Source: Dehalococcoidia bacterium
Lineage (GTDB): Bacteria > Chloroflexota > Dehalococcoidia > Tepidiformales > Tepidiformaceae
Direction: 5' to 3'
Length of the DNA: 37,063 bases
Assembly: GCA_007118095.1 (NCBI GenBank)
Contig: SKSF01000116.1
Location: forward strand, 1 to 37,063
Position 1 is the stretch's first letter. Each line of letters begins with the position of its first letter. A program made the position numbers and the translations under genes. Shown piece after piece: positions 3,272 to 34,220 of this stretch. Below the pieces are notes generated by a model. That model saw only the letters and a list, made by a program, of their open reading frames with translations, had not been told where the DNA came from and made no database searches.

Positions 3272-3703
3272 ATGCGGATCGCCTTCGATACAAACCTGCT
3301 CGTCGCCGCCCTGGTCAACCCCTCCGGGGCATCCGCCTCGATCGTGGAACGATGGCGGCGTGGCGAGCTCATCTTCGTCGCCTCGCGTGCGACCCTCCGC
3401 GAGGCCGAGCAAGTGCTGGGCGGTGGCTGGGTTGCGCGCGTGGCCAGCGGAGGGGCACGCGCGCAGCTCGTCCGTGACCTCTTCGAGAACACCGAACAGG
3501 TCGACGCACCCAGGATCGCCAGCCTCCCGCCCCTCAAAGACGCGGGCGACCGGCGCCTCGTCGAAGCGGCGGTCGCCGGCAACGCTGCCTACCTCGTGAC
3601 GTCAGACCGCGAAGTACTGCTCCGGCGCGGTCATGACTCCGTCGAGTTCATCACTCCCGACCAGCTCATCTCGTTGCTCAAGAAGCGCCGATCTGGCAGC
3701 TAG
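3272..3703 (+). CDS. PIN-domain protein (putative toxin-type RNase)
   Basis: A 143-residue PIN domain of the kind annotated as toxin component, PIN family (COG1569-like). PIN toxins cut RNA using a cluster of acidic residues. Here these would be D6 (RIAFDTNLLVAAL), a Glu in REAEQ (44 or 46), D93 (DRRLVEAAV) and D112 (LVTSDREVL), in the expected order. No antitoxin precedes it: only 119 nt and a terminator separate it from the multicopper oxidase. It may therefore be a solitary PIN protein or part of a separated pair. Its stop codon interlocks with that of the convergent hydrolase gene in the sequence CTAG. No clear ribosome site precedes the ATG, so start confidence is lower than identity. 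Confidence 0.85.
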   Translation: MRIAFDTNLLVAALVNPSGASASIVERWRRGELIFVASRATLREAEQVLGGGWVARVASGGARAQLVRDLFENTEQVDAPRIASLPPLKDAGDRRLVEAAVAGNAAYLVTSDREVLLRRGHDSVEFITPDQLISLLKKRRSGS

Positions 3704-4539
3704 GCCGGCTCCCACTTGAAACCGGACTCGACACGCCGCACATGCCCGGTCGTAAGGATGGGCCAGTGGCCGCCTGTTACCAGCGCCTGCCGGTCGGCTG
3801 CCAGGTTCGCCAGCTTCCCGCGCGATGCCACCGACGCCTCCGGGTCGATATCGACCGCGGGGATCCAGTCATGATGCTCGAACTGCAGCGGGTGATGCGC
3901 CGCGTCCCCGGTAATCACCAGGTGCTCGCCACCCGAAGCCACCATCACCGAGCAGTGCCCCGGCGTGTGCCCCGGTGTCGGGATCATCGTCACCGATGGG
4001 GTCACCGTCTGTTCGCCGTCGATGGGCGAGAGCCGGTTGCCCTGCTGGAGCGCCGCGACCACCCGTTTCGCCGTTCGCGTGAACTGGCTCTCCTCGCTCC
4101 CCATGAAGTGGTCCACGTCCTTTTGATGCACGTACACCGTCGCGTTCGGGAAGCTCAGCTCGCCCTCGCCCGGCAGGTCCAGGTCCCAGCCACAATGGTC
4201 CGGGTGCAGGTGCGTGTGGACGACCGCCGTGATCTCGCCAGCGTCGACGCCAAGGTCGCGCAATCGCGCCGGCAGTTCGCCACCGCCCGGCGCGCCGGTT
4301 TGGCTCCCCGCGGTGCCAAAACCGGAGTCCACAAGCACCACCCCGGTACCCGAGCGGATGAGAAACGTCCCGAAGTTGAAGGGGATCGGGTCGTCTGGCT
4401 TCGTCAGCCCCAGTGCGCGCGTCCACCCTTCCGCGTCAAAGTCGCGGAAGAACGAGCTCATGTCGCGGTCCGGCGCGCCGTCGCTCAACGCCGCGATCTC
4501 CGCGTTGCCTACCGTGAAGGTCTCCATTAGCCGGGACAT
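3700..4539 (-). CDS. Metallo-beta-lactamase-fold hydrolase (lactonase/OPHC2-like)
   Basis: A 279-residue MBL-fold enzyme. The metal signature HTHLHPDH (108-115) gives the HxHxDH ligands. A further His in TPGHTPGH (191 or 195) and D212 in GDAAHH complete a two-metal site. The N-terminal ALSDGAPDRD and the overall size resemble MBL hydrolases related to quorum-quenching lactonases and the phosphotriesterase OPHC2, but the substrate cannot be read from sequence. No signal peptide is visible, so it is cytosolic. The frame extends 13 codons further, but a GGGAGGG just upstream of 4539 favours this ATG. The gene is convergent with the PIN gene and overlaps its stop. It is divergent from the CE1758-like oxidoreductase gene, with about 130 nt between them. 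Confidence 0.88.
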   Translation of the reverse strand: MSRLMETFTVGNAEIAALSDGAPDRDMSSFFRDFDAEGWTRALGLTKPDDPIPFNFGTFLIRSGTGVVLVDSGFGTAGSQTGAPGGGELPARLRDLGVDAGEITAVVHTHLHPDHCGWDLDLPGEGELSFPNATVYVHQKDVDHFMGSEESQFTRTAKRVVAALQQGNRLSPIDGEQTVTPSVTMIPTPGHTPGHCSVMVASGGEHLVITGDAAHHPLQFEHHDWIPAVDIDPEASVASRGKLANLAADRQALVTGGHWPILTTGHVRRVESGFKWEPA

Positions 4540-20628: not shown

Positions 20629-22533
20629 TCACGCGCCAGGCCGGGGACGGTGGTGCCGCGGCAAAGCCGTCGGCGGTATTGCAGTGGGCACATCCCGCCC
20701 CTGCGCGTGGGCGACAAAGAGGGTGCTCTCGATGAATCCGATGTGGCTGAGCGCTTGCGGAAAATTGCCGAGAAACTGGCCGGTCGAAGGGTCAATTTGC
20801 TCTGCGAACAAGCCCAGGTGGTTTGCACGCCCCGCCAGCCGCTCGTAGAGCTCGATGCCCTCCCGCTCACGGCCCGAGAGCACCAGGTTGTTGATGAGCC
20901 ACGTCGTGCAGAGAATACAGCCGCCTTCTTTCCCGGGGAGCCCATCGTCAACGACATAGCGGCGGACCAGCCCTTCGTCCAGGAGCTCTTTCTGCACCTG
21001 GTCGATCGTGCCCTGCGCGCGCTGGTCGTCGAACGAAATGAGCCCCTCGATCGGGATCATGAGTCCCGATGCGTCCATGGCCTCCGACCCGAAACGCTGC
21101 ACAAAGGCTCGCTTCTCCTGCGAGTATCCCTGCTCAAGGATGAGCTCGCGTACCTCGTTAGCCGCCCTGCGCCACCGCTCCACATCCCCGGCCAGCCCCT
21201 GCTCTTCTGCGAGCCGCACTGCCCGGTCGAGTGCCACCCACGTCATCAGCTTCGAGTAAACGTAGTGCGCGGCCTCGAGCGGCATCTCCCAGAGTCCGTG
21301 GTCAGGCTCCCGCCATGCCTCTGCCGCGAGGTCCGCGACGGCGGGAAGGAAACTCCAGATGTCATCCGCGAGCTCACAGCCATCGCTGAGCAGCTCGTCG
21401 GCGGCGTCCAGGATCTCGCCGAGCACATCGTGCTGTGCCTGCGACGCAGCCTCGTTCCCGATCTTCACCGGCGCCGACCCCCGGTAACCTTCGAAATGCG
21501 ACAGCTCTTCTTCGGGGAGTACCGTCTCGCCGCGCACACTGTACATAACATACAGATCCCCGCCGGACTGCTTGTGCGCCGCCGACGTCCTTTCGATCCA
21601 GTTCACAAACGCCTGCATTTCGGCGTGATGACCCGTCGCGACAAACGCCTGGCCGGTCATCCCGGCATCCCGTATCCAGGCATAGCGGTAGTCCCAGTTG
21701 CGGATCCCGCCGATGGTCTCGGGCAGCGATGTCGTCCCGGCCGCTGCGATGGCGCCGGTCTCGCCATGTGTCAGCAGCTTCAATACGAGTTCCGACCGCG
21801 TCACCAGCTGGTCGTAGGGCGCCGCCCATTCCCGCGTCCGCGTCGTTTTGTCCTTGTGGGCCCACGCTTCCCAGGCGTCAATCGTTTCCCGCAGCAGGTC
21901 GAACGCCCGCGGGTATCCAGCGGGCGCCTCCCGGTCCCAGCACTGGACCAGCGCCATGCGCGTCCCGTCCGCAAGGTGGAGGTGTACCTGCAACGTGTCG
22001 TTGCCCTGCTCGTCGCGCACGACCGAATGTTCACCCGGCGGGAGTCCGTCCAGCCCGAGCCATCGCGTCCCGTCAGTGGCTACAAACCGGCCGCCATCGC
22101 GCTCGATCCGCGTCGTCGTCCGGGCGTAATCGAACCGCGGCGCCCAGGTAACCGCCGCCTCGACATCGCCCTCCGCGGTCACGACGCGGAAGAGATACGG
22201 GTAAGCCGTTGACCCGCCGCAGCCGTCGAGGTCCCCGGTCAGCGGCAGGAAATCGGTGATAGTGAGCCGGCCGCCCTCCGTCGGGAAGCTGGTCTCCAAC
22301 ACGTTGGTGTCCCCCAGGTACCGCTGGTCACCGCGCCGCGGGCCACCGGGCGCGCTCACCTGGAACCGCCCGCCCTTGTCCACGTCCAGCAGCGCCGCAA
22401 ACACGCTCGGGCTGTCGATATCCGGGTAACAGAACCAGTCGATTGAACCGTCGCGCCCGGTGAGCGCAACGGTGCGCAGATTCCCCGTGACCCCGTAATC
22501 CTCGATTGGCTGATAGGGAGATGCGGCTGGCAT
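20629..22533 (-). CDS. GH15 glycoside hydrolase (glucoamylase/trehalase-like)
   Basis: A 634-residue GH15 enzyme hydrolysing alpha-glucosides such as trehalose, dextrins or isomaltose; the exact substrate is not readable. IEDYGVTGNLRTVALTGRDG and IDWFCYPDIDSPS mark the N-terminal beta domain. The (alpha/alpha)6 barrel shows GIRNWDYRYAWIRDAG (276-291), GLWEMPLEAAHYVYSK (413-428) with the likely general acid E416, and GLFAEQIDPSTGQFLGNFPQA (574-594) with the likely general base E578. No signal peptide, so it is cytosolic. The start shares one base with the upstream oxidoreductase stop (TGATG), so the two are coupled. It ends a minus-strand polycistron of LLM oxidoreductases. Confidence 0.93.
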   Translation of the reverse strand: MPAASPYQPIEDYGVTGNLRTVALTGRDGSIDWFCYPDIDSPSVFAALLDVDKGGRFQVSAPGGPRRGDQRYLGDTNVLETSFPTEGGRLTITDFLPLTGDLDGCGGSTAYPYLFRVVTAEGDVEAAVTWAPRFDYARTTTRIERDGGRFVATDGTRWLGLDGLPPGEHSVVRDEQGNDTLQVHLHLADGTRMALVQCWDREAPAGYPRAFDLLRETIDAWEAWAHKDKTTRTREWAAPYDQLVTRSELVLKLLTHGETGAIAAAGTTSLPETIGGIRNWDYRYAWIRDAGMTGQAFVATGHHAEMQAFVNWIERTSAAHKQSGGDLYVMYSVRGETVLPEEELSHFEGYRGSAPVKIGNEAASQAQHDVLGEILDAADELLSDGCELADDIWSFLPAVADLAAEAWREPDHGLWEMPLEAAHYVYSKLMTWVALDRAVRLAEEQGLAGDVERWRRAANEVRELILEQGYSQEKRAFVQRFGSEAMDASGLMIPIEGLISFDDQRAQGTIDQVQKELLDEGLVRRYVVDDGLPGKEGGCILCTTWLINNLVLSGREREGIELYERLAGRANHLGLFAEQIDPSTGQFLGNFPQALSHIGFIESTLFVAHAQGRDVPTAIPPTALPRHHRPRPGA

Positions 22534-23737: not shown

Positions 23738-24844
23738 CTACGCCGCGCGGAGCGTCCCGGCCAGTGCCGGTTTCAAGGAACGGCTAAAAAAGTCGACAAA
23801 CGCCTCCGGACGTGGCCCCACCTGGTGGATGTAGATGTGGTCGATGCCCGCGGCCGCGTACTCCTGGATTGCGTCGACAATCGGTCCGGTACTCGACGTA
23901 CAGATGATCTTGTTGGTGACTGCCCCCTGTGGGACATGCTTCACGGCATCTTCGAGCTGAGCTGGAGTCCGCAGGTCTGCCCGGAGTAACCACGAGAGCG
24001 CGGAGATGGGCCAGTGTTCGTGCGCAATCTGCCGGGCGCGCTCCTCGTCCTCGTCCCAGCAGAGCGTGATCTGCCCGTAGACGGACTTCTCACCGCCGCC
24101 TTCCCGCACACGCTCAATGAGTTCGGTATCGGGTCCCGTGACGACCAGCCCGTCGTTCTCCGCGGCGAGCTCGGCCGAGCGAGGGCCCGCCGCAGCGACA
24201 ACGATCTCCGGCGGGTCATCTGGCAACGTATAGAGCCTGGCTGCCTCCACCGTGAAGTGGTCACCGTGGTAAGTGTACTCTTCCCCGGACCACAGCCGCC
24301 GGATGATCTTGATGGCCTCCCGCAGCTTTGCCAGCCGGATGCCCGGCGTGTACCAGTGGTCGCCGGTGACGTGCTCGTTCAGGGCTTCCCCGGAGCCGAG
24401 CCCGAGCGTGAACCGCCCCGGCATCATCGCCGCGGTGGTGGCCGCGGCATGAGCAATGATCGCCGGGTGAATTCGACCCGAAGGGCACGTGACGCCCGTG
24501 CCGACCTTGATGTCGCGGGTCACGCTGGCGACGCCTCCGAGCAGTGACCACACGAACACACCCTCCCCCTGTTGGCTGATCCACGGGTGGAAGTGGTCCG
24601 TCGCCATCAGGAAATCGAAATCTGCTTCCTCGGCCATCTGCGCCAGCTTCACCAGCCGATCCGGCGGATGCTCTTCGCCGAAGAGCCCGAATCCCAGTTT
24701 CGGTGTTGTCTCCCCGCCCGTCGGCCGGTCCTGTGTGCCGGTAACGGGAGTGAACGACGGCGGGTCGCTCGCCGGGAATGACTCGTCCGCTTCCTCATCG
24801 ATCATGTTGCCCTGGCCGGGGCGGCGTTCTTCGGGCATCGTCAT
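23738..24844 (-). CDS. LLM-class F420-type oxidoreductase (TIGR03557-like) with an ESFPASDPPS leader
   Basis: A 368-residue luciferase-like oxidoreductase of the TIGR03557 group, related to F420-dependent glucose-6-phosphate dehydrogenase. FGLFGEEHPPDRLVKLAQ, ATDHFHPW, VGTGVTCPSGRIHPAII, LGLGSGEALNEHVTGDHW and IYIHQVGP are the family blocks. The first 48 residues are extra. They contain DEEADESFPASDPPSFTP, a motif otherwise known to me from tiny stand-alone proteins, so this looks like a fusion or an acquired leader. The upstream gene's TGA overlaps the ATG as ATGA (24844-24841), which supports the early start. Cofactor F420 or FMN is not decidable from the window. Confidence 0.9.
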   Translation of the reverse strand: MTMPEERRPGQGNMIDEEADESFPASDPPSFTPVTGTQDRPTGGETTPKLGFGLFGEEHPPDRLVKLAQMAEEADFDFLMATDHFHPWISQQGEGVFVWSLLGGVASVTRDIKVGTGVTCPSGRIHPAIIAHAAATTAAMMPGRFTLGLGSGEALNEHVTGDHWYTPGIRLAKLREAIKIIRRLWSGEEYTYHGDHFTVEAARLYTLPDDPPEIVVAAAGPRSAELAAENDGLVVTGPDTELIERVREGGGEKSVYGQITLCWDEDEERARQIAHEHWPISALSWLLRADLRTPAQLEDAVKHVPQGAVTNKIICTSSTGPIVDAIQEYAAAGIDHIYIHQVGPRPEAFVDFFSRSLKPALAGTLRAA

Positions 24845-25332
24845 GCATCACCTTTCCGTTGCCGGCTGGCTCGCGGCTCCGCCAGCGTGTCGTCCGGTGC
24901 GGTACGAAGCCCCTGGGCAAGCATGTCGGCAATCTCCGGTTTACTGAGCTGGTCGTCCGGGCTAAACAGGGACACCAGGTAGGCCGTCTCGTGCGGCGGG
25001 GTCTCGCCGTTCGTCACCGAGCCATCGCTCCAGGCATAAACGTCGAACGCTTCCCCCGGTGCCTTGTCGCCAAGCAGTTTCGCGACGGACTCTGCCATCG
25101 CGCCCAGGTCCGGCGCCTCGACAGTTTCCCTGTCCCGGGCAATCAGCTCACCTTCCGCCGCTGTCTCCTCGTCGGGCGGGACCGGCGGTTCATACATTTC
25201 CGGGTTCTCCTCGTCGGAGAGTCCATCAGAGACCAGGTCGCGCATTTCCACGCGCTCGTTCCCGAGTTCGGGCTCGCCTTCGAGCCGGCTCTCTTCGTTC
25301 GGCGCCTTCTCGGGCCGGGTATCACGCTCCAT
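24841..25332 (-). CDS. YAWSDGSVT-domain protein 1 (unknown family)
   Basis: A 163-residue protein, unnamed as far as I know. The first 70 residues are very acidic and Pro/Glu-rich and probably disordered (for instance EENPEMYEPPVPPDEE). Residues 75-143 form a compact domain, DLGAMAESVAKLL, DVYAWSDGSVT, AYLVSLF and KPEIADML, which is repeated in the protein at 30298-30792. A basic tail follows. GGAGG (25338-25342) is 5 nt before this ATG; another ATG lies one codon upstream. The stop overlaps the next gene as ATGA, making it the first gene of an operon with two LLM oxidoreductases and GH15. It has no catalytic motif that I can name. Confidence 0.75.
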   Translation of the reverse strand: MERDTRPEKAPNEESRLEGEPELGNERVEMRDLVSDGLSDEENPEMYEPPVPPDEETAAEGELIARDRETVEAPDLGAMAESVAKLLGDKAPGEAFDVYAWSDGSVTNGETPPHETAYLVSLFSPDDQLSKPEIADMLAQGLRTAPDDTLAEPRASRQRKGDA

Positions 25333-25613
25333 CATTTCCTCCACGCGGCAGCCTGCAATCCGCGGGCCGTCCGCCTGTGCGGGTACATGCCTCCAACCTC
25401 TACCCATGCCCGTCACGCCCGGATAACGCCGCATCCAGCCCTGCTTGCGAACCCGTAACCAGCGACGCTCGGGCGCCGCCGGCACATAGATCGGCCTCGC
25501 CCCGTGGCAATCCGTAACATCGATGATATGCGCCGGTGTGATGACGCTGCGGTTACTGTTCTACCATAACGCGAAGATGGCCATGCCAATCACAACACTG
25601 GAGGTTTGAATAC
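25333..25613. promoter_or_regulatory. Divergent region between YAWSDGSVT protein 1 and membrane protein
   Basis: 281 bases that must hold promoters for both directions. The leftward ribosome site is GGAGG at 25338-25342 and the rightward one is GGAGG at 25600-25604. A partly matched repeat GCGGTTA / TAACGC lies around 25547-25572. The stretch 25550-25610 is relatively AT-rich. I see no gene here; a longer leftward frame starting near 25485 has no ribosome site. Confidence 0.45.
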
Positions 25614-26216
25614 ATGTCGAAACAAGAGGCAAAGACCGGGACAAGTCTTGGTGCGCTTGGCGCCACCGAACAGGCCGGTGCGTTCGTTGTCGGCATCCTC
25701 GCCGTCGTCCTCGGGGTTATCGGCCTGCTCAGGGGCTTCGGCGTCTTCGAACAGGGCACAGTCGAACAGGCGCCCCTCACCGCAAACTTCGGCGCGGGGC
25801 TCATGTGGCTGATTCCCGCGGTGGCCGTTGCCATCCTTGCGGTAACGCTCGCGCGTGCGGATCACCCGCATAGCGGCGAGCAGGGAGCTTCCGGCCAGAT
25901 GGGCCACACCATTGCCTACCTCGGCGCCATCGTCACCGTCGTGCTTGCCGCCCTGGCCATCCTTACGGGCTTCAACTGGATCGGCCAGGACACTACCGCT
26001 GCTACGGGGCTGCTCTGGGGAAGCGCTTCCATCGTTTCGGCCTTCGTGACCCTGGCGGCCCACATGATCCCGCCGACCGCGGTCGCCGACCAGGACCAGC
26101 TCGTCCGCATGGTGGAATCCCGCGTCCGTGCGAGTGGCCCCGGCCCCGCCCCCTCAGCGGAGCCGGCGGCAAAGCAGAGCCCGGAATCTTCCGGGGGCTC
26201 ACAGCCAGGCGGTTAA
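25614..26216 (+). CDS. Hypothetical four-helix membrane protein
   Basis: A 200-residue integral membrane protein with helices at about 21-42 (AGAFVVGILAVVLGVIGLL), 60-80, 97-118 and 130-152. The N-terminus is short and charged. A 45-residue Pro/Ser/Gly-rich cytosolic tail starts after DQDQLVRMVESRVRA. I recognise no family. GGAGG at 25600-25604 precedes the ATG by 9 nt. It is divergent from YAWSDGSVT protein 1. No catalytic residues are visible; a small stress-type membrane protein is one guess. Confidence 0.8.
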   Translation: MSKQEAKTGTSLGALGATEQAGAFVVGILAVVLGVIGLLRGFGVFEQGTVEQAPLTANFGAGLMWLIPAVAVAILAVTLARADHPHSGEQGASGQMGHTIAYLGAIVTVVLAALAILTGFNWIGQDTTAATGLLWGSASIVSAFVTLAAHMIPPTAVADQDQLVRMVESRVRASGPGPAPSAEPAAKQSPESSGGSQPGG

Positions 26217-26260
26217 GGCATGCCGCCACGATGTGAGGCGGACATTTGAATGCTATGCAT

Positions 26261-26292
26261 GGCCCGGCTACCGTTAGACGCGGTAACCGGCC
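26261..26292 (+). promoter_or_regulatory. Near-perfect hairpin abutting a start codon
   Basis: CGGCTACCG (26265-26273) and CGGTAACCG (26281-26289) are inverted with one mismatch around TTAGACG. Adding flanking GGCC pairs gives a 12-pair stem with one bulge, ending at the base before the ATG at 26293. No Shine-Dalgarno is visible there, so the hairpin either masks the start of that gene, terminates the upstream gene, or is an operator. A T-run is absent. Confidence 0.5.
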
Positions 26293-26748
26293 ATGCGATC
26301 ACCTTTCAAATTCCTTACAAAGTTGCGCTGGACCCCGCGCGATATCGCTGGCCGCATGGCCGCGGCTCGCAGGCGGGGCACTGGCGCTTACCTCAACGAC
26401 TGGCAGTTCGTGCGTGACGCGACCTCTGCGGCCGCTACAAACGTCGACGATATGCTCGAGCCCATCGTGCACTGGTGCCGCGAGACCGTCGCGGGTACCA
26501 GGCGCCCTTGCGGTATCAGCCAGTTTGACCTCGTGGTGGCTGTGCACGGCACAGGAGGCGAGCCCCGCAGCCTGCTGTTTGAGCATCGGTCGCCGAACGA
26601 GCTCTACGGTGCCGAGTCGCTCGTCCAGGCGCTCCGCCGATTCCTCGAATCCCACGCGCTCGGGCCGACTACCAGAGTTTCGGTAGCGCTCTTCTCCTGG
26701 GGCGACGCGGCACACCGGGCTCTCCCTGCGGACGCCCGACCCGCATAG
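26293..26748 (+). CDS. Hypothetical protein, 151 residues
   Basis: An unrecognised protein. It has a basic N-terminus (FKFLTKLRWTPRD, MAAARRRG), then FDLVVAVHGTGGEPRSLLFE, a helix (GAESLVQALRRFLESHAL) and VSVALFSWGD. There is no signal or membrane helix. The start is uncertain: the ATG at 26293 abuts a hairpin and has no ribosome site, and the in-frame ATG at 26356 is an alternative. A long opposite-strand frame overlaps it and the next gene, but its product matches nothing. Moderate confidence that this strand is the coding one. Confidence 0.55.
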   Translation: MRSPFKFLTKLRWTPRDIAGRMAAARRRGTGAYLNDWQFVRDATSAAATNVDDMLEPIVHWCRETVAGTRRPCGISQFDLVVAVHGTGGEPRSLLFEHRSPNELYGAESLVQALRRFLESHALGPTTRVSVALFSWGDAAHRALPADARPA

Positions 26749-26820
26749 ACGTGCGGTGATGCCTTTGCTCGCGCATTCCGCGTAAACTCCCGGCCACACC
26801 AGCAGGCTGCGGAGGAATCT

Positions 26821-27765
26821 ATGCCCGAGATCATCACTGCGAGGGGGTCGGTCGATACGTCCCGGCTCGGCGTCACGCTCATGCACGAACACGTCGTCAC
26901 CAGGTCGCCAGGATTGTTCGAAGCCTGGCCTCACCTGTGGGACCGCGGGGCCGAGATGCAGCGCGCCGTCGGCCTGCTGTCCGGCGCGGCCGCCGAGGGC
27001 ATCAACACCATCGTCGACCTCACGACCATCGACCTTGGCCGCGATGTCGCCTTTGTACGCGATGTCGCGAAACAGGTCCCTGTTAACATCATCATGTGCA
27101 CCGGCGTCTGGCGGAACCCGCCTCGCTACTTCCAGCAAGCCGACGCCGACCACATCGCCGACCTCTTCGTCCGCGACATCGAAGAAGGGATGGAGGGCAC
27201 AGACGTCCGCGCTGGCATCATCAAGCTCGCGACTGAACCCGATGTCGACGAGCTAAACGACAAGCTCCTCCGCGCGGGAGCCCGGGCACATCGCCGCACC
27301 GGCGTCCCCATCAGCACCCATCACGACGTCTCCACGGGGTGCGGCTTGCGGCAACAGGACGTGTTCGAAAGTGAAGGTGTCGACCTGTCACGCGTCGTCA
27401 TTGGCCACTCCGGAGATACTGCCGACACGGACTACCTCGTCTCTATCATGAAGCGCGGAAGCACCATCGGCATGGATCGCTTTGGCATCGACCGCTTCTT
27501 GCCGACCGCCGAACGCACGGAGACGGTAGCCCGCCTCTGCGAAGTCGGGTACGCCGGGCAGATGGTGCTCTCGCACGATGCCAACAGCTACATGGACACC
27601 ATCCCGCCCGCGGTGAAAGCCGAGCGCATGCCCAACTGGCACTATCTGCACATCAGCCGCGATGTCCTGCCGGCACTGCGTCAGCGCGGGACCCCACAGG
27701 AGCAGATCGATACGATGATGGTTCACAACCCCCGCCACATCTTCGAACGGCAGGGTGCGTACTAG
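26821..27765 (+). CDS. Phosphotriesterase-like lactonase (PLL family)
   Basis: A 314-residue amidohydrolase-superfamily barrel. The binuclear metal site is visible: HxH at 22 and 24 (TLMHEHV), the Lys expected to be carboxylated at 135 (GIIKLAT), His 167 (STHHDV), His 196 (VIGHSGD) and Asp 253 (LSHDAN). Enzymes of this group mostly open lactones, sometimes with phosphotriesterase side activity; the natural substrate here is unknown. No signal peptide, so it is cytosolic. GGAGG at 26811-26815 with 5-nt spacing fixes the start. A strong bidirectional terminator follows. The neighbouring unknown gene upstream is 72 nt away. Confidence 0.94.
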   Translation: MPEIITARGSVDTSRLGVTLMHEHVVTRSPGLFEAWPHLWDRGAEMQRAVGLLSGAAAEGINTIVDLTTIDLGRDVAFVRDVAKQVPVNIIMCTGVWRNPPRYFQQADADHIADLFVRDIEEGMEGTDVRAGIIKLATEPDVDELNDKLLRAGARAHRRTGVPISTHHDVSTGCGLRQQDVFESEGVDLSRVVIGHSGDTADTDYLVSIMKRGSTIGMDRFGIDRFLPTAERTETVARLCEVGYAGQMVLSHDANSYMDTIPPAVKAERMPNWHYLHISRDVLPALRQRGTPQEQIDTMMVHNPRHIFERQGAY

Positions 27766-27792
27766 CGAAACCGGGCTTACGCCGGGAACGAA

Positions 27793-27821
27793 AGAGGGGG
27801 CAGCATGCCGCTGCCCCCTCT
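27793..27821. terminator. Bidirectional terminator between lactonase and cupredoxin genes
   Basis: A perfect 12-bp stem AGAGGGGGCAGC / GCTGCCCCCTCT with a five-base loop sits between two convergent genes. Rightward it is followed by ATGTTG; leftward it runs into TTCGTT. Confidence 0.88.
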
Positions 27822-27847
27822 ATGTTGAGTGCTGATGGGATGGCTGG

Positions 27848-28285
27848 TTATTCGACGACCGTAATCGTGCCCACCATCTCCGGCAGGTGGTAGTCGCACT
27901 CGAAGACGTACTCACCCGGCTCGTTCAGGGTCATCTCGAAGGTGTCTTCCTCACCCGGCTCCACAATGGGGTCTGTTTCGAAGTCCTGGCCCTCTTCTTC
28001 CGTCGCGCGCACGGCGAGATTGTGGATCTCGGCGCCCTCGTTCACCGCCGTCACGGTCACGGATGTCCCCGCCTCGACCGTGAATTCATCCGGCTCGAAG
28101 TAGTTGTCGTGCATGTCGACGGTGATCTCGGTCACCGCATCTGCGGCGCCATCATCATTGCCGTTCGCGTCGTCGGTGACGCCGTTGCCATTGTCGTCGT
28201 CGTTGCCACACGCCGCTGCCAGGGCCAGCATGCCGGCGAGCAATGCGGGCACCACCAGTGCTTTTATGCCAAATCGTCGATGCAT
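27848..28285 (-). CDS. Cupredoxin (type-1 copper) lipoprotein
   Basis: A 145-residue exported blue-copper protein. The signal peptide ends in LALAAAC (C26, probable lipid attachment), followed by an Asp/Asn/Gly-rich linker to residue 50. The plastocyanin-like barrel carries all four type-1 ligands: H88 (EIHNL), C130 and H133 (FECDYH) and M137 (LPEM). It should shuttle electrons on the outer face of the membrane. The linker style matches that of the multicopper oxidase near 2 kb. AAGGAG about 6 nt upstream supports the ATG. The leader includes a hairpin GCGGGC-N8-GCCCGC (28299-28318), and a GTAAC-N4-GTTAC dyad lies 82 nt upstream. Confidence 0.93.
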   Translation of the reverse strand: MHRRFGIKALVVPALLAGMLALAAACGNDDDNGNGVTDDANGNDDGAADAVTEITVDMHDNYFEPDEFTVEAGTSVTVTAVNEGAEIHNLAVRATEEEGQDFETDPIVEPGEEDTFEMTLNEPGEYVFECDYHLPEMVGTITVVE

Positions 28286-28298
28286 TCCTTGCTCCTTC

Positions 28299-28318
28299 GC
28301 GGGCGTTCCGTTGCCCGC
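28299..28318 (-). promoter_or_regulatory. Hairpin in the cupredoxin leader
   Basis: GCGGGC and GCCCGC pair around eight bases, touching the ribosome site (28292-28297). It could affect translation; a role is not demonstrated. Confidence 0.35.
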
Positions 28319-28365
28319 AATTATGTGTTCCCTTTCAGGGTATTCCTTGTTTCCCGTCCGGGCAC

Positions 28366-28381
28366 GTAACCTTGGTTACCA
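28366..28381. promoter_or_regulatory. GTAAC-N4-GTTAC dyad upstream of the cupredoxin gene
   Basis: GTAAC (28367-28371) and GTTAC (28376-28380) are inverted repeats around CTTG; six-base arms GTAACC/GGTTAC also pair. The geometry equals that of the GTGAC-N4-GTCAC sites at 69-88 and 1777-1792, with one symmetric base change. It is centred 88 nt before the start codon. It is a candidate site for the same regulator or for a copper sensor. Confidence 0.45.
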
Positions 28382-28559
28382 TCGACACTGGCCGTTGATT
28401 GGATGTGTGTATGTGCGCTATCCGTACAGCGACTGTGAGCAATGCGCGGAGCTTATTCCTGGAGTATCCGCCGCGCTCGTCGCCGGCTCAGTCGGAACAA
28501 TTCCTAACAAGAATGGTAGGTGAAAACAGCGGGAGCCGGTGCAGGATACCGCATCCGGC
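28382..28559. other. Gene-free gap beside the LigD-type gene
   Basis: No gene, terminator or repeat that I can support. It joins the cupredoxin control region to the end of the polymerase-domain gene; both are minus-strand. Confidence 0.5.
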
Positions 28560-29477
28560 TTATCTCCTGCGTAGCTCCTCCAGCATCCCCTCCAGCCGCT
28601 TTCGTGGTTCCCGGAGCGAACGTGCACGACGGTGCATCCCCTTCCAGGGGTTGGATGCGTCCGCGATCCGATCGCGAGCATTCCTGATCGTGAACGCTTT
28701 CGGGTGCACGTCCTCCAGCTCGTCCCAGTCGACCGGCATCGCCACCGGCGCCCCCGGCCGCGTTCGTACCGAGTAGGGCGCCGCGAACGACTGCCCGTAC
28801 GAGTTCCGCAGCGTATCGATGAAAATCCGGCTGCCGCGGTTCGCCTTGTACTGCTCCGTCGTCCGTGCTGCCGGCGCGCGAAGCACCAGCACTTCCGCTA
28901 CCCCCTGGGCGAACTCCCGCACCTCGTCGAAATCGGACGATCCGTCTAGCGGTACAACGATGTGCAGCCCGCGCGATCCGCTCGTCTGCACGAGTGTGGC
29001 CAGGCCCACTTCGGACAGCACTTCCCGCGTGTCGTGAGCGGCCGCCCGTACCGCCGGGAAATCGTCGCCCGGCGGGTCCAGGTCGAACACCATGATGTCC
29101 GGCCACCATGGCGACTCCGCTCGGCTCAGCCAAGCGTGCGGGGTGATGCACCCCTGGTTCACCATGTAAACGAGGTCCGCCGCCCGCCGACACACTGCCT
29201 GCTCGACGGTGCCCCCCTCCTTCTCGAGGCGGGCGCGTTCGATCCAGCCGGGGAAATGCTCGGGTGCGTTTCGCTGGTAGAAGCCGTCTTCCTCTATCCC
29301 GTCGGGATACCGTTCCATCGTGATCGGACGGCCACGCAGGAATGACAGCATCACTGGTGCGACGTCGCGGTAGTATTCCACAACCTCGCCTTTGGTTATG
29401 CCTCCGCCCCGAAACCATGCCTTGTCTTCGTTCGAGACCTCAACATGGTATGTGCTGAAGCGCAGCGTCCGGGTCAT
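28560..29477 (-). CDS. LigD-type polymerase domain (NHEJ primase-polymerase)
   Basis: A 305-residue stand-alone LigD polymerase (PolDom, archaeo-eukaryotic primase superfamily). The catalytic pair is FDLDPP (D132, D134). The nucleotide-binding block is TSGSRGLHIVVPL (165-177, H172), and D221 (IFIDTLRN) completes the metal site. HAWLSRAESPWWPD and RPITMERYPDG are family blocks. It would add or fill nucleotides at DNA ends during Ku-dependent end joining. No ligase domain, nuclease domain or Ku gene lies in the window, so partners must be elsewhere, or it works alone as a gap-filling polymerase. Its ATG overlaps the previous gene's TGA (ATGA), so it is coupled to the DUF2171-like protein. Confidence 0.92.
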   Translation of the reverse strand: MTRTLRFSTYHVEVSNEDKAWFRGGGITKGEVVEYYRDVAPVMLSFLRGRPITMERYPDGIEEDGFYQRNAPEHFPGWIERARLEKEGGTVEQAVCRRAADLVYMVNQGCITPHAWLSRAESPWWPDIMVFDLDPPGDDFPAVRAAAHDTREVLSEVGLATLVQTSGSRGLHIVVPLDGSSDFDEVREFAQGVAEVLVLRAPAARTTEQYKANRGSRIFIDTLRNSYGQSFAAPYSVRTRPGAPVAMPVDWDELEDVHPKAFTIRNARDRIADASNPWKGMHRRARSLREPRKRLEGMLEELRRR

Positions 29478-30190
29478 GACGAGTCCGCGTCGTTCCCCCG
29501 GACCAGTCCCTTGCGGCGGGCTTCCTGGTCTTCTTCGTCTCCCCGCGGGTCAATCTGGGCGTGCATGCCGGGGTCCGGTGCATCGAGGCCTGCCTCGAGT
29601 TGCGCAGGGTCAGTCAACGCCAGGGCGGGCAGCTCATCCTTCGCGTGCCCGAGCGAAACGCGCATCGCATCCGCGCGCTGGATGACCGACACGCTGAGCC
29701 AGAATGACTCACCATCACCCGGGCTGACCTGCACGTATTTGCTCCAGACAGAATCCACGTGCCCTACAAGGTGGTCGTCGGAGCTGTAGACCGCCGTACC
29801 CGGCCCTGCGTCCGCTGTGTCTGCGCGGTGCCCTCCCACATCCTCCTGGAACCGGTCGGGCCAGTGTCGGTCGAAGAAAGCTGGCAGGCGCTGTTGAAGG
29901 CGTTCCCGATCCCGCGGTTCGAGCTTCGCAATAGCTTCCTTCGTCGCTTCCTGCAGGCGGTGCGCCGTTTCCGGCTCCATCTTCTCTATCGCGGCGAGGA
30001 AGAGCGCGGCGACGTGATGCGCGGCATCGGCGCCCATGGCGCTCCAGCTCTCCAGGCGCTGGCGGATCGCCGTTTGGCGCTCCTCCGGAGGCAGCCGTTC
30101 CTCGGTATGCAGGAGCTCGCGCACGCGCTGCTCCGCCTGGTGCTCTGGAAGCCTCGTGAGTTCGTCGAAGGTGGTCGTATCAGTGGTCAT
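29474..30190 (-). CDS. Helical protein with a DUF2171/PRC-barrel-like domain
   Basis: A 238-residue protein in two parts. Residues 1-115 are a Glu/Arg/Leu-rich helical region (RVRELLHTEERLPPEERQ, KEAIAKLEPRDRERLQQRL). Residues 130-185 look like the PRC-barrel relative DUF2171: AVYSSDDHLVGHVDSVW, YVQVSPGDGESFWLSV and RVSLGHAKDEL. An acidic tail follows. Such barrels occur in general-stress proteins; the activity is unknown. The stop is coupled to the LigD polymerase gene by an ATGA overlap, so a DNA-damage or stress role is a reasonable inference. No strong ribosome site precedes the ATG. Confidence 0.8.
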   Translation of the reverse strand: MTTDTTTFDELTRLPEHQAEQRVRELLHTEERLPPEERQTAIRQRLESWSAMGADAAHHVAALFLAAIEKMEPETAHRLQEATKEAIAKLEPRDRERLQQRLPAFFDRHWPDRFQEDVGGHRADTADAGPGTAVYSSDDHLVGHVDSVWSKYVQVSPGDGESFWLSVSVIQRADAMRVSLGHAKDELPALALTDPAQLEAGLDAPDPGMHAQIDPRGDEEDQEARRKGLVRGNDADSS

Positions 30191-30297
30191 ATCGGCAACA
30201 GTCCGTGCGGTTTTCTATCCGTCCACCTTCGTCCTGGCACAGTGGCGGCACCATTACAGAGTGCTGTCTCGCACTTGCGGTGCGCTAACGTTCCGAA

Positions 30298-30792
30298 CTA
30301 GTCGCGGTACTCCTCGGGCGGACGATCGAGCTCGGTGTCCTCCCCCGGTTTGGGCTCCGCGAGGTCCATGCGCCGCCGCGCCGTGGTGATGCGCCCGGGC
30401 CCGGTCGGCGGGGCCGCTTCCAGCTCCTGGTCACCCGGCACATCTTTTGGCCGCGGCGGAGCATCGCGCGACTGTTCCTGCATCCCGCCCATGTTTCGGA
30501 CCGGCTCATCGCTTGCCTTCGAAAACGCGTCGTCCAGCTCGTCGTGTATCTCCGCGGGCGTGCGCCCTTCGCTGTCGCCGGTGAACACCGTAATGAGATA
30601 CGCCGACGGGTCTGCCGGGAACGCATCGGGCGTCACGGATCCGTCACTCCACGCATAGATGGGCCGCCCCGCCGCCACCGCGAAATGGTCGACGATGGCG
30701 CGCGCCATATGCGCCAGGTCCGGATCCCACTTGCCTTTGAGCGCCTCCTTGGCGCGTTGTTCTGTCGTCTCGCGGACGCCTCGCTCGGACAT
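30298..30792 (-). CDS. YAWSDGSVT-domain protein 2 (unknown family)
   Basis: A 164-residue paralogue of the protein at 24841-25332. The shared domain is at residues 25-92: DLAHMARAIVDHF, PIYAWSDGSVT, SAYLITVF and PAEIHDELDDAF. Here the domain is N-terminal and the disordered, Pro/Arg/Glu-rich segment follows it, the reverse of the first protein. AAGGAGA with about 4-nt spacing supports the ATG. It lies 21 nt after a small zinc protein and 107 nt before the DUF2171-like gene, so it probably shares a transcript with the LigD polymerase. No enzyme motif is visible. Confidence 0.78.
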   Translation of the reverse strand: MSERGVRETTEQRAKEALKGKWDPDLAHMARAIVDHFAVAAGRPIYAWSDGSVTPDAFPADPSAYLITVFTGDSEGRTPAEIHDELDDAFSKASDEPVRNMGGMQEQSRDAPPRPKDVPGDQELEAAPPTGPGRITTARRRMDLAEPKPGEDTELDRPPEEYRD

Positions 30793-31716: not shown

Positions 31717-34095
31717 TTACGCACCGTCCATGTCATCGGCGATGCCCGGGAGCGTCACGACAAATTCCGCGCCGTTGCCGGGCTCGCTGTAGCACACGAC
31801 ATCCCCGTCGAGCTGGCGCACAATCTCACGCGTCAAATAAAGGCCCACGCCGTATCCATCCTTGCTGCTCGCGGAGGCGCTGCGGTGGAAACGTTCGAAG
31901 ATGTACGGGAGGTCGTCGCTGGCAATCCCCGGGCCCTGGTCGCTCACCCGCAGCAGGGCAGCGTCCGGTTTCATCTCAAGCGAAACCGTAATGGTCGCGG
32001 GGTCGCCACCATACTTCGCCGCGTTCGAAAGCAGGTTCGCGATGACCTGCCGTAGCCGCCCCTCATCCGAAATCACGACGCATTCGTCCGATGGCACGTG
32101 CGTTTCCAGCGTCACGCCGGGATACCGCGCGAGCAACGATTCCGTTTCACTTGTGACCAACTTGCGCAGGTCCACCGGCCCCCCTTCCACCACCAGCCGG
32201 TTCGATTCGATCCGGGACAGGTCCAGGAAGACATCGACGATGCGCGACATCCGTTCCGATTCTTCTGCGAGCGTCTCCGATGCCTCGTGCATCTCCTCGT
32301 CGAACATCTCCGGCGAGCCTCGCACCTTCCGGTCCATCCAGCGCGCAAGCCCCAGGATCGGAGTCAGTGGATTGCGTAGCTCGTGCGTGGCGAACGACAG
32401 GAAATCGTCCTTGCGTTGCGTCGCTGCGATCCGTTCAGTGATGTCCTCGAAAGCGATGACGGAGCCGACGCGCTCTTCGCCAACGACAATTGGCGAACAC
32501 CGGAAGCGGACAGGGAATGTCGCTCCAGAGCAATGGACGAAGATATCCTCGTCATCTCCCGAAACCGTGGAACCCCACACGGTGAGCGTCGGGCACGCTT
32601 TCTCACCACAGGGTCCTGTGTCTTCCAGCCCTTCATGGACGAGCTGGTGAAAGGGTGTACCCAGCACTGCGTCTGCCTGGTAGCCGAGGAGCGCTTCCGC
32701 TGCGGGGTTCATGAGGGCAATCCGCCCGTCAGCATCGAGCTGACAAACTGCGTATTCGACTGCTTCAAGGATGGTGCTCAGGCGCGCTCGCTCTTCCTCG
32801 GCTCTTTCGTAAAGGTGAGCTTTCTCAAGCGCAACGGCAGCGCGCCGCGCAAATGCCATCGCAACGTTCACGTCCCGTCCCGTGTACCTTCGATCGGATT
32901 CCGAGGTCAGAAACGTGACGGTCCCGAGGCACCCCTCCCGCCCGTTCAGTGGGGCTATGAGCACGGAACGGAGGCCCATGTCATGCAGCAACACCGCCCG
33001 TCTCTCCTCCGAAAGCCCGGCCCGCTGCAGCATCTCCTCGTCCACGACCGGGACATACTCGGGTTCGCCCGATTCCATGACCCTCCGAAGCGGTCCCCAT
33101 GGCATACTCGCAGCCGGGTAGCGGGCGGCAAGCTCCTGCCGGGCCGGGTCCTTGTGCAAAGTCAGCACGCGGTCCAGGTGACCGTCATCCCGGGACAGGT
33201 GGATGATGCACCAGTCCGCAAAGTATTCGAGTGACACCCGCGCAATCGACTCAAGCGTCTTGTCGGAATCCATCGAATAGGCGAGCTGCTTGCTGATTTC
33301 CGAGAGAAAGGCCAGCGAATCTTCGGCCCGCTTCCGGTCGGTCACATCGCGGAGGATGACCGTGAAGACCTTGCTGCCGTCCACGTCGGCCTGCGAAATC
33401 CGCGCCTCGGCGGGAAACCGTTCACCATTCGCACGCAGTCCCCACACTTCACGCGGGGACATCGCCCGCTCGCCCACGCCGGAGCGGCCGAAGCCACGAA
33501 TGTGCTCATCATGGACATTGCGGAACTCTTCCGGCAGCAGCACGCCCAGGTGCTGGCCTACCGCGCCGTCTGCGGGCCAGCCAAAGATCTGCTCCGCCCC
33601 CCGGCTGAACTGGGTTATGCGGTGCTCCTCATCGATCGTGATGATCGCGTCCATGGCCGAATCGAGGATCGCTTGTAACCGCCGCTCGGCCCGTTCTGCC
33701 CGTCCACGCGCTGCTTTTTGCGCCGTGATGTCGAAGCAGGTGCCGATATAGCCAAGAAATGTCCCATCGTCGTCGTAGTGCGGCCTGGCACGCTCGCTGA
33801 TCCATCGGTACTGCCCGTCGTCGCGCCGTAGCCGGTATTCCACCTCGAACGACTGTCGCTGCCTAAGCGATGCCCGGAATGTCTCGTTGTAGTGCGTGAC
33901 GTCATCGGGGTGGAGGCCTTCAGTCCAGCCCTCGCCTGTTTCCTGCTCGTGGCTCCGTCCCCGGAAGTCAAGCCAGGGCTGATTGAAATAGACGGCACCG
34001 CCGTCCATGTCCGACATCCAGACCAGGACGGGCGCCGTATCGAGTATCTCTTCCGCATCGGGCGGATGCGACAAGGCCCGCTCGGTATCACTCAT
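31717..34095 (-). CDS. Multi-domain soluble histidine kinase (PAS-PAS-GAF-PAS-HisKA-HATPase)
   Basis: A 792-residue cytosolic sensor kinase. PAS 1 spans about 15-125 (WISERARPHYDDDG, GYIGTCFDIT). PAS 2 is 137-258 (IITIDEEHRITQFSRGAEQIFGW). GAF is 275-425 (SVLIAPLNGREGCLGTVTFL). PAS 3 is 438-556, with Cys-rich PCGEKACP (495-502). HisKA follows, with H571 in SFATHELRNPL. The ATPase domain shows N691 (VIANLLSNAAKYGG), DQGPGI (D719) and GYGVGLYL. No membrane helix and no neighbouring response regulator. The start could be 34095, 34119 or 34140; GGAGA 11 nt before 34095 gives it slight preference. Domain order suggests integration of several cytosolic cues, possibly redox through the Cys motif (inference). 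Confidence 0.92.
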   Translation of the reverse strand: MSDTERALSHPPDAEEILDTAPVLVWMSDMDGGAVYFNQPWLDFRGRSHEQETGEGWTEGLHPDDVTHYNETFRASLRQRQSFEVEYRLRRDDGQYRWISERARPHYDDDGTFLGYIGTCFDITAQKAARGRAERAERRLQAILDSAMDAIITIDEEHRITQFSRGAEQIFGWPADGAVGQHLGVLLPEEFRNVHDEHIRGFGRSGVGERAMSPREVWGLRANGERFPAEARISQADVDGSKVFTVILRDVTDRKRAEDSLAFLSEISKQLAYSMDSDKTLESIARVSLEYFADWCIIHLSRDDGHLDRVLTLHKDPARQELAARYPAASMPWGPLRRVMESGEPEYVPVVDEEMLQRAGLSEERRAVLLHDMGLRSVLIAPLNGREGCLGTVTFLTSESDRRYTGRDVNVAMAFARRAAVALEKAHLYERAEEERARLSTILEAVEYAVCQLDADGRIALMNPAAEALLGYQADAVLGTPFHQLVHEGLEDTGPCGEKACPTLTVWGSTVSGDDEDIFVHCSGATFPVRFRCSPIVVGEERVGSVIAFEDITERIAATQRKDDFLSFATHELRNPLTPILGLARWMDRKVRGSPEMFDEEMHEASETLAEESERMSRIVDVFLDLSRIESNRLVVEGGPVDLRKLVTSETESLLARYPGVTLETHVPSDECVVISDEGRLRQVIANLLSNAAKYGGDPATITVSLEMKPDAALLRVSDQGPGIASDDLPYIFERFHRSASASSKDGYGVGLYLTREIVRQLDGDVVCYSEPGNGAEFVVTLPGIADDMDGA

Positions 34096-34220
34096 CAGGT
34101 CGTAATCTCCGATCGGCATCTCCCGGCAATGAGCCGACAAGATCTGATCATATATTAGCCTGTTTCGTCGCCCGAATCCTCGTTTGCGGAGGTGTTACGC
34201 CTTCCGGAGCAACGTGAGGG

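Follow-up and report, generated by a model that had tools for sequence, protein, structure and literature searches.

The window, a stretch of 37,063 nucleotides of contig SKSF01000116.1 from a Dehalococcoidia bacterium, carries two small genes, P0003 and P0004, whose products share a domain that is referred to here as WxDG and named for its W-x-D-G motif. The two genes, their domains and the genes that follow them are as follows.

24841..25332, minus strand: P0003, 163 aa, with an acidic leader (residues 1-72, predicted disordered) followed by the WxDG domain (residues ~73-150)
24883..25119, minus strand: WxDG domain of P0003, modelled as helix 76-89, strand 98-101, strand 119-123 and helix 131-144
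24841..24844, minus strand: ATGA in which the stop of P0003 overlaps the start of the LLM oxidoreductase, read directly in the sequence
23738..24844, minus strand: F420-type LLM oxidoreductase (TIGR03557, E=3.6e-111), directly downstream of P0003
22533..23522, minus strand: FMN-type LLM oxidoreductase (TIGR03885, NCBIfam match), next in the operon
20629..22533, minus strand: GH15/trehalase-like glycoside hydrolase (Pfam/NCBIfam), last in the operon
30298..30792, minus strand: P0004, 164 aa, with the WxDG domain (residues ~22-98) followed by a low-complexity Pro/Glu-rich tail (residues 99-164)
30490..30735, minus strand: WxDG domain of P0004, modelled as helix, strand, strand, helix (mean pLDDT 82.9, pTM 0.73)
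29474..30190, minus strand: DUF2171-like protein (sub-threshold match), 107 nt downstream of P0004
28560..29477, minus strand: stand-alone LigD primase-polymerase domain protein (Pfam/NCBIfam)

Both open reading frames lie where a preliminary description of this DNA had placed them, on the minus strand, a detail which that description omitted; when the same coordinates are read on the plus strand, no comparable protein is encoded. Shine-Dalgarno-like sequences are located upstream of the ATG of P0003 (GGAGG) and of P0004 (AGGAG), and the codon usage of the two genes resembles that of the neighbouring enzymes (log-odds +52 and +43, respectively). Judged from these ribosome-binding sites and codon usage, P0003 and P0004 look like real genes. 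Promoter and terminator predictions at the window loci were uninformative.

The surroundings of the two genes also agree with the preliminary description, in that P0003 heads an operon of two LLM oxidoreductases and GH15, while P0004 precedes the DUF2171-like protein and the LigD primase-polymerase. The ATGA shared by P0003 and the F420-type LLM oxidoreductase suggests that these two proteins are co-translated. A similar ATGA overlap (29474-29477, minus strand) connects the DUF2171-like gene with the start of the LigD polymerase gene and suggests that this pair is translationally coupled. The DUF2171 assignment itself corresponds to a match of 19.8 bits (E=0.00099), which is under the Pfam gathering score of 25 bits. 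The F420-type LLM oxidoreductase matches TIGR03557 from residue 50 and the Pfam luciferase family from residue 59, and an N-terminal extension of ~45 residues containing EADESFPASDPPSFTP is situated ahead of its enzyme fold. A histidine kinase that has three PAS matches and a GAF domain is encoded upstream of P0004 in the same orientation (31717-34119, minus strand). Additionally, the host has a second LigD-polymerase gene (G000:C8:9480-10307), which is 37% identical to that of the window.

The domain common to P0003 and P0004 spans ~78 residues (about 75-80 across the family). In the BLASTP alignment, which pairs residues 74-150 of P0003 with residues 24-98 of P0004, 28/78 positions are identical (36%, E=4e-11). 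The Smith-Waterman score of the two proteins is 112, against a mean of 39.5, a standard deviation of 7.0 and a maximum of 71 among 2000 shuffles. When the nonamer YAWSDGSVT is masked, the remaining score of 56 (shuffles 36.8±6.2) is reached by 15 of the 2000 shuffles. The pairwise similarity of the shared domain is thus confirmed as well above chance, and the two proteins are paralogous, as had been proposed. The sequence blocks originally quoted are all present in P0003 and P0004, respectively: PDLGAMAESV and PDLAHMARAI, VYAWSDGSVT and IYAWSDGSVT, AYLVSLF and AYLITVF, and PEI and AEI.

The same description spoke of "reversed layouts" of the domain. The domain is indeed C-terminal in P0003 and N-terminal in P0004, but the arrangement amounts to a compact domain with a tail at either end. 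Both extensions are of low complexity, acidic at the N-terminus of P0003 and Pro/Glu-rich at the C-terminus of P0004, and BLASTP detects no mutual similarity between the leader of the former and the tail of the latter. The two layouts do not represent an exchange in the order of two folded domains. Since most members of the family consist of just the domain (8 of 10 copies are little more, at ~81-90 aa), the term implies less than it seems to.

AlphaFold2 models were built on four sequences. In the model of the P0004 domain, a helix (7-20, domain numbering) is followed by a strand (25-29), a short strand (34-35), a further strand (47-52) and a second helix (60-73). In the full-length model of P0003, the block is modelled at a pLDDT of 81-93 over residues 71-140, and its two helices and two strands (76-89, 98-101, 119-123 and 131-144) fall at alignment positions that match those of P0004. 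On this comparison of element positions, made in place of a superposition, the two domains are predicted to share a helix-strand-strand-helix fold. The predicted architecture comprises a helix, a strand, the W-x-D-G turn, a short strand, a loop, a strand and a helix. The 72-residue leader of P0003 is modelled at about 50 pLDDT with almost no structure and looks disordered.

No named family could be assigned to the domain, as the preliminary description had also stated. Pfam gives nothing for P0003 or P0004 even at E=1, NCBIfam yields one irrelevant match to them, far below its cut-off, and PHROGs returns weak matches alone, to families of unknown function. Other members show no match near any curated Pfam or NCBIfam cut-off. 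A sequence search of the PDB with a three-sequence profile produced nothing credible, Foldseek comparisons with the PDB and with viral structures (BFVD) gave no match with E below 0.4, and a literature search on the motif found no paper. Neither a match to a described family nor a difference in fold between the two window domains was encountered. The WxDG domain therefore appears undescribed, with no named family, solved relative or match in the fold libraries searched.

Profiles iterated over whole genomes recover 10 WxDG copies in 6 of the 38 genomes of the host's order, which all belong to one taxonomic family; eight of these copies lie beyond the window pair. At least four are found in the host genome (G000), namely P0003, P0004 and one copy each on contigs C108 and C27. 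The further copies are as follows.

G000:C108:3666-3911, plus strand: WxDG copy in the host (profile search)
G000:C27:31881-32129, minus strand: WxDG copy in the host (profile search)
G265:C449 (1183-1428) and G265:C421: two WxDG copies (profile search)
G206:C14, G557:C95 and G277:C54: one WxDG copy each (profile search)
G563:C153:19199-19450, minus strand: WxDG copy, an unnamed 85-aa protein (G563 is JAFKFP010000077.1)

D and G of the motif do not vary among the ten copies, nine of which have the W, and their alignment contains no conserved Cys or His, cofactor motif or catalytic-looking set of residues. The conservation of W, D and G together with the lack of any conserved Cys or His argues against an enzyme or a metal site.

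Beyond the order, 400 genomes of the phylum and 393 of the class gave no convincing member, with about 13 candidates scored per genome, which makes this absence weaker evidence than the counts within the order. The ten-member profile likewise found nothing convincing in the phylum outside the order, where weak matches were assessed from their length and incomplete coverage. In other searches of the phylum, matches at E 0.001-0.01 proved on inspection to be unrelated long proteins. When genome and viral collections were scanned by pattern and by tblastn with the two-sequence alignment, no relative was found, and phage, plasmid and viral-contig collections, queried with subfamily patterns or single members, gave no match. 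A scan of about 85,000 species genomes with the degenerate DNA pattern Y[AV]WxDGxVT, the motif of the acidic subfamily alone, returned seven matches, one of which, in G563, is related. The six others are repeat-domain, peptidase-like or serine-hydrolase-type proteins by reading, which carry the motif by chance. The related protein resembles the window pair in its domain, its acidic character and its motif (IYVWSDGSVT); unlike P0003 and P0004, it stands alone, without leader or tail. As far as these genomes indicate, the family seems scattered and fast-changing and has so far been found only in the order of the host. The existence of the WxDG family and its predicted fold can be proposed with high confidence.

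The ten copies fall into two subfamilies. In a tree of the ten short rows, the window pair and the G563 protein are set apart from the other seven with support of 94/92, which is less than full. These three form an acidic subfamily with a domain net charge of about -10 (about -10 and -11 for the window domains). The near-neutral subfamily, with a net charge of about -3.5 to +2, includes both further host copies (C108 and C27), the two of G265 and those of G206, G557 and G277. Its members share with the window domains the W-x-D-G core, the length and, as expected from the alignment, the helix/strand pattern, whereas they differ in a longer loop from the turn to the last strand, the lack of tails and the near-neutral charge. 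The sequence link between the subfamilies is visible at the profile level only: an HMM of the neutral members misses the acidic ones, and hhalign joins the two profiles over 70 columns (96% probability, E=2.9e-9). Common descent of both subfamilies is considered quite likely.

The genes around the other copies are diverse. The G563 copy is located upstream of two GNAT acetyltransferases rather than LLM or LigD genes. The C108 copy of the host (at 3639-3914) and the C449 copy of G265 both lie between a transketolase gene and an NYN-domain gene, on the strand opposite to both, and this is the sole position shared between genomes among the ten copies; the two genomes belong to one genus. The C421 copy of G265 adjoins OsmC, the G206 copy adjoins YbjQ, and the G557 copy is near an ABC transporter and an acyl-CoA-dehydrogenase-like gene (named by reading). 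A BrxC-like bacilliredoxin gene converges on the G277 copy (L134:4537-4809), which overlaps its 3' end by 4 bases. An unnamed 200-aa protein also adjoins the G277 copy. Contig C324 of G265 shows the window's grouping of LLM, cupredoxin and LigD genes; the LigD locus has neither P0004 nor the DUF2171-like gene and carries a Maf-like gene (by reading) in their place, and the position corresponding to P0003 is out of view because the LLM gene starts at the contig edge. With neighbours that differ at nearly every copy, the earlier functional reading of the domain in terms of "redox and repair" finds no support as it stands: no partner is conserved between copies, which leaves no basis for linking the domain to LLM oxidoreductases or to LigD. 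In the suggestion of a "small adaptor or sensor domain", the sensor part lacks support, given the missing Cys, His and cofactor motif, and the adaptor part stays conjectural.

The explanation tentatively preferred overall is that WxDG is a lineage-restricted domain that serves as a protein-protein interaction module. It would be a small globular domain, present in multiple copies at variable positions, either stand-alone or with one disordered tail, and would dock on a partner protein. In the acidic subfamily, the charged flexible tail may tether the partner or tune the contact with it. Paralogues would have landed ahead of different genes, and each of them would probably have a separate partner. 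This reading is favoured by the lack of catalytic or metal residues, the compact fold, the charged flexible tails and the changing neighbours. The interaction role taken by itself, along with any partners, is proposed with rather more doubt. The pairing of P0003 with the F420-type LLM oxidoreductase is the best candidate partnership because the two overlap in translation, and P0003 might act as an accessory or regulatory subunit of this enzyme. A bolder version, in which WxDG is a new recognition module that serves the F420-type oxidoreductase through P0003 and a LigD polymerase unit through P0004 in an order-specific stress response, is very unlikely.

Several other explanations are possible, and those of a sensor, a nucleic-acid-binding domain and a selfish element are less supported than the interaction module. 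A ligand- or redox-sensing domain could control downstream enzymes by binding a flavin or metabolite in the pocket around the W-x-D-G turn and signalling through the tail. The window copies, at the head of an F420/FMN oxidoreductase operon and ahead of an NHEJ gene, would suit such a role, as would the loosely stress-related OsmC, BrxC and YbjQ near further copies; however, conservation is confined to W, D and G, and the neighbours are inconsistent, several of them (GNAT, transketolase, ABC transporter) being unrelated to stress, so that sensing is regarded as unlikely. Binding of nucleic acids, by a domain akin to double-stranded-RNA-binding and related small folds, is less probable still. 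It draws on the order of secondary structure elements in the models, since the helix-strand-(strand)-strand-helix order presumably resembles that of double-stranded-RNA-binding folds, and on the location of P0004 beside a DNA-repair polymerase and of the C108 copy beside an NYN-domain protein. However, neither such a fold nor a basic face is indicated: Foldseek retrieved no fold of this kind from the PDB, and the window domains are strongly negative.

The patchy distribution and scattered positions of the copies, several of which are orphan genes on the strand opposite to their neighbours, could also be explained if the domain were the relic of a mobile or selfish element (an antitoxin, an immunity protein or a small phage-derived protein) that duplicates and is often lost. 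Such an origin is highly improbable, as the phage, plasmid and viral-contig collections gave no match to the subfamily patterns or single members, no toxin-like gene is paired with the copies, and the C108 copy is in synteny between transketolase and NYN genes in both genomes of the genus. The likelihood that the domain is a fragment of a known protein, truncated or diverged, such as the fumarase segment 'FPLVVWQTGSGTQ', is negligible. A four-sequence profile did match a fumarase in the PDB (4hgv, E=0.0013), and fumarase matches occur across the class, but the PDB match is lost with three-sequence and ten-sequence profiles, most members are compact stand-alone proteins, and the model does not have a fumarase-like fold. 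By the tests made, the VVWQTGSGT segment of this fumarate hydratase is not homologous to the YAWSDGSVT of the domain and resembles it by chance.

Uncultured bacteria commonly have undescribed, lineage-restricted families of small proteins, and the WxDG findings do not point to a surprising mechanism. The domain would make a small, easy target for structure determination and a definable new family of the Pfam type. Its interest would rise if a partner were shown, for instance the F420-type oxidoreductase translated directly after P0003.
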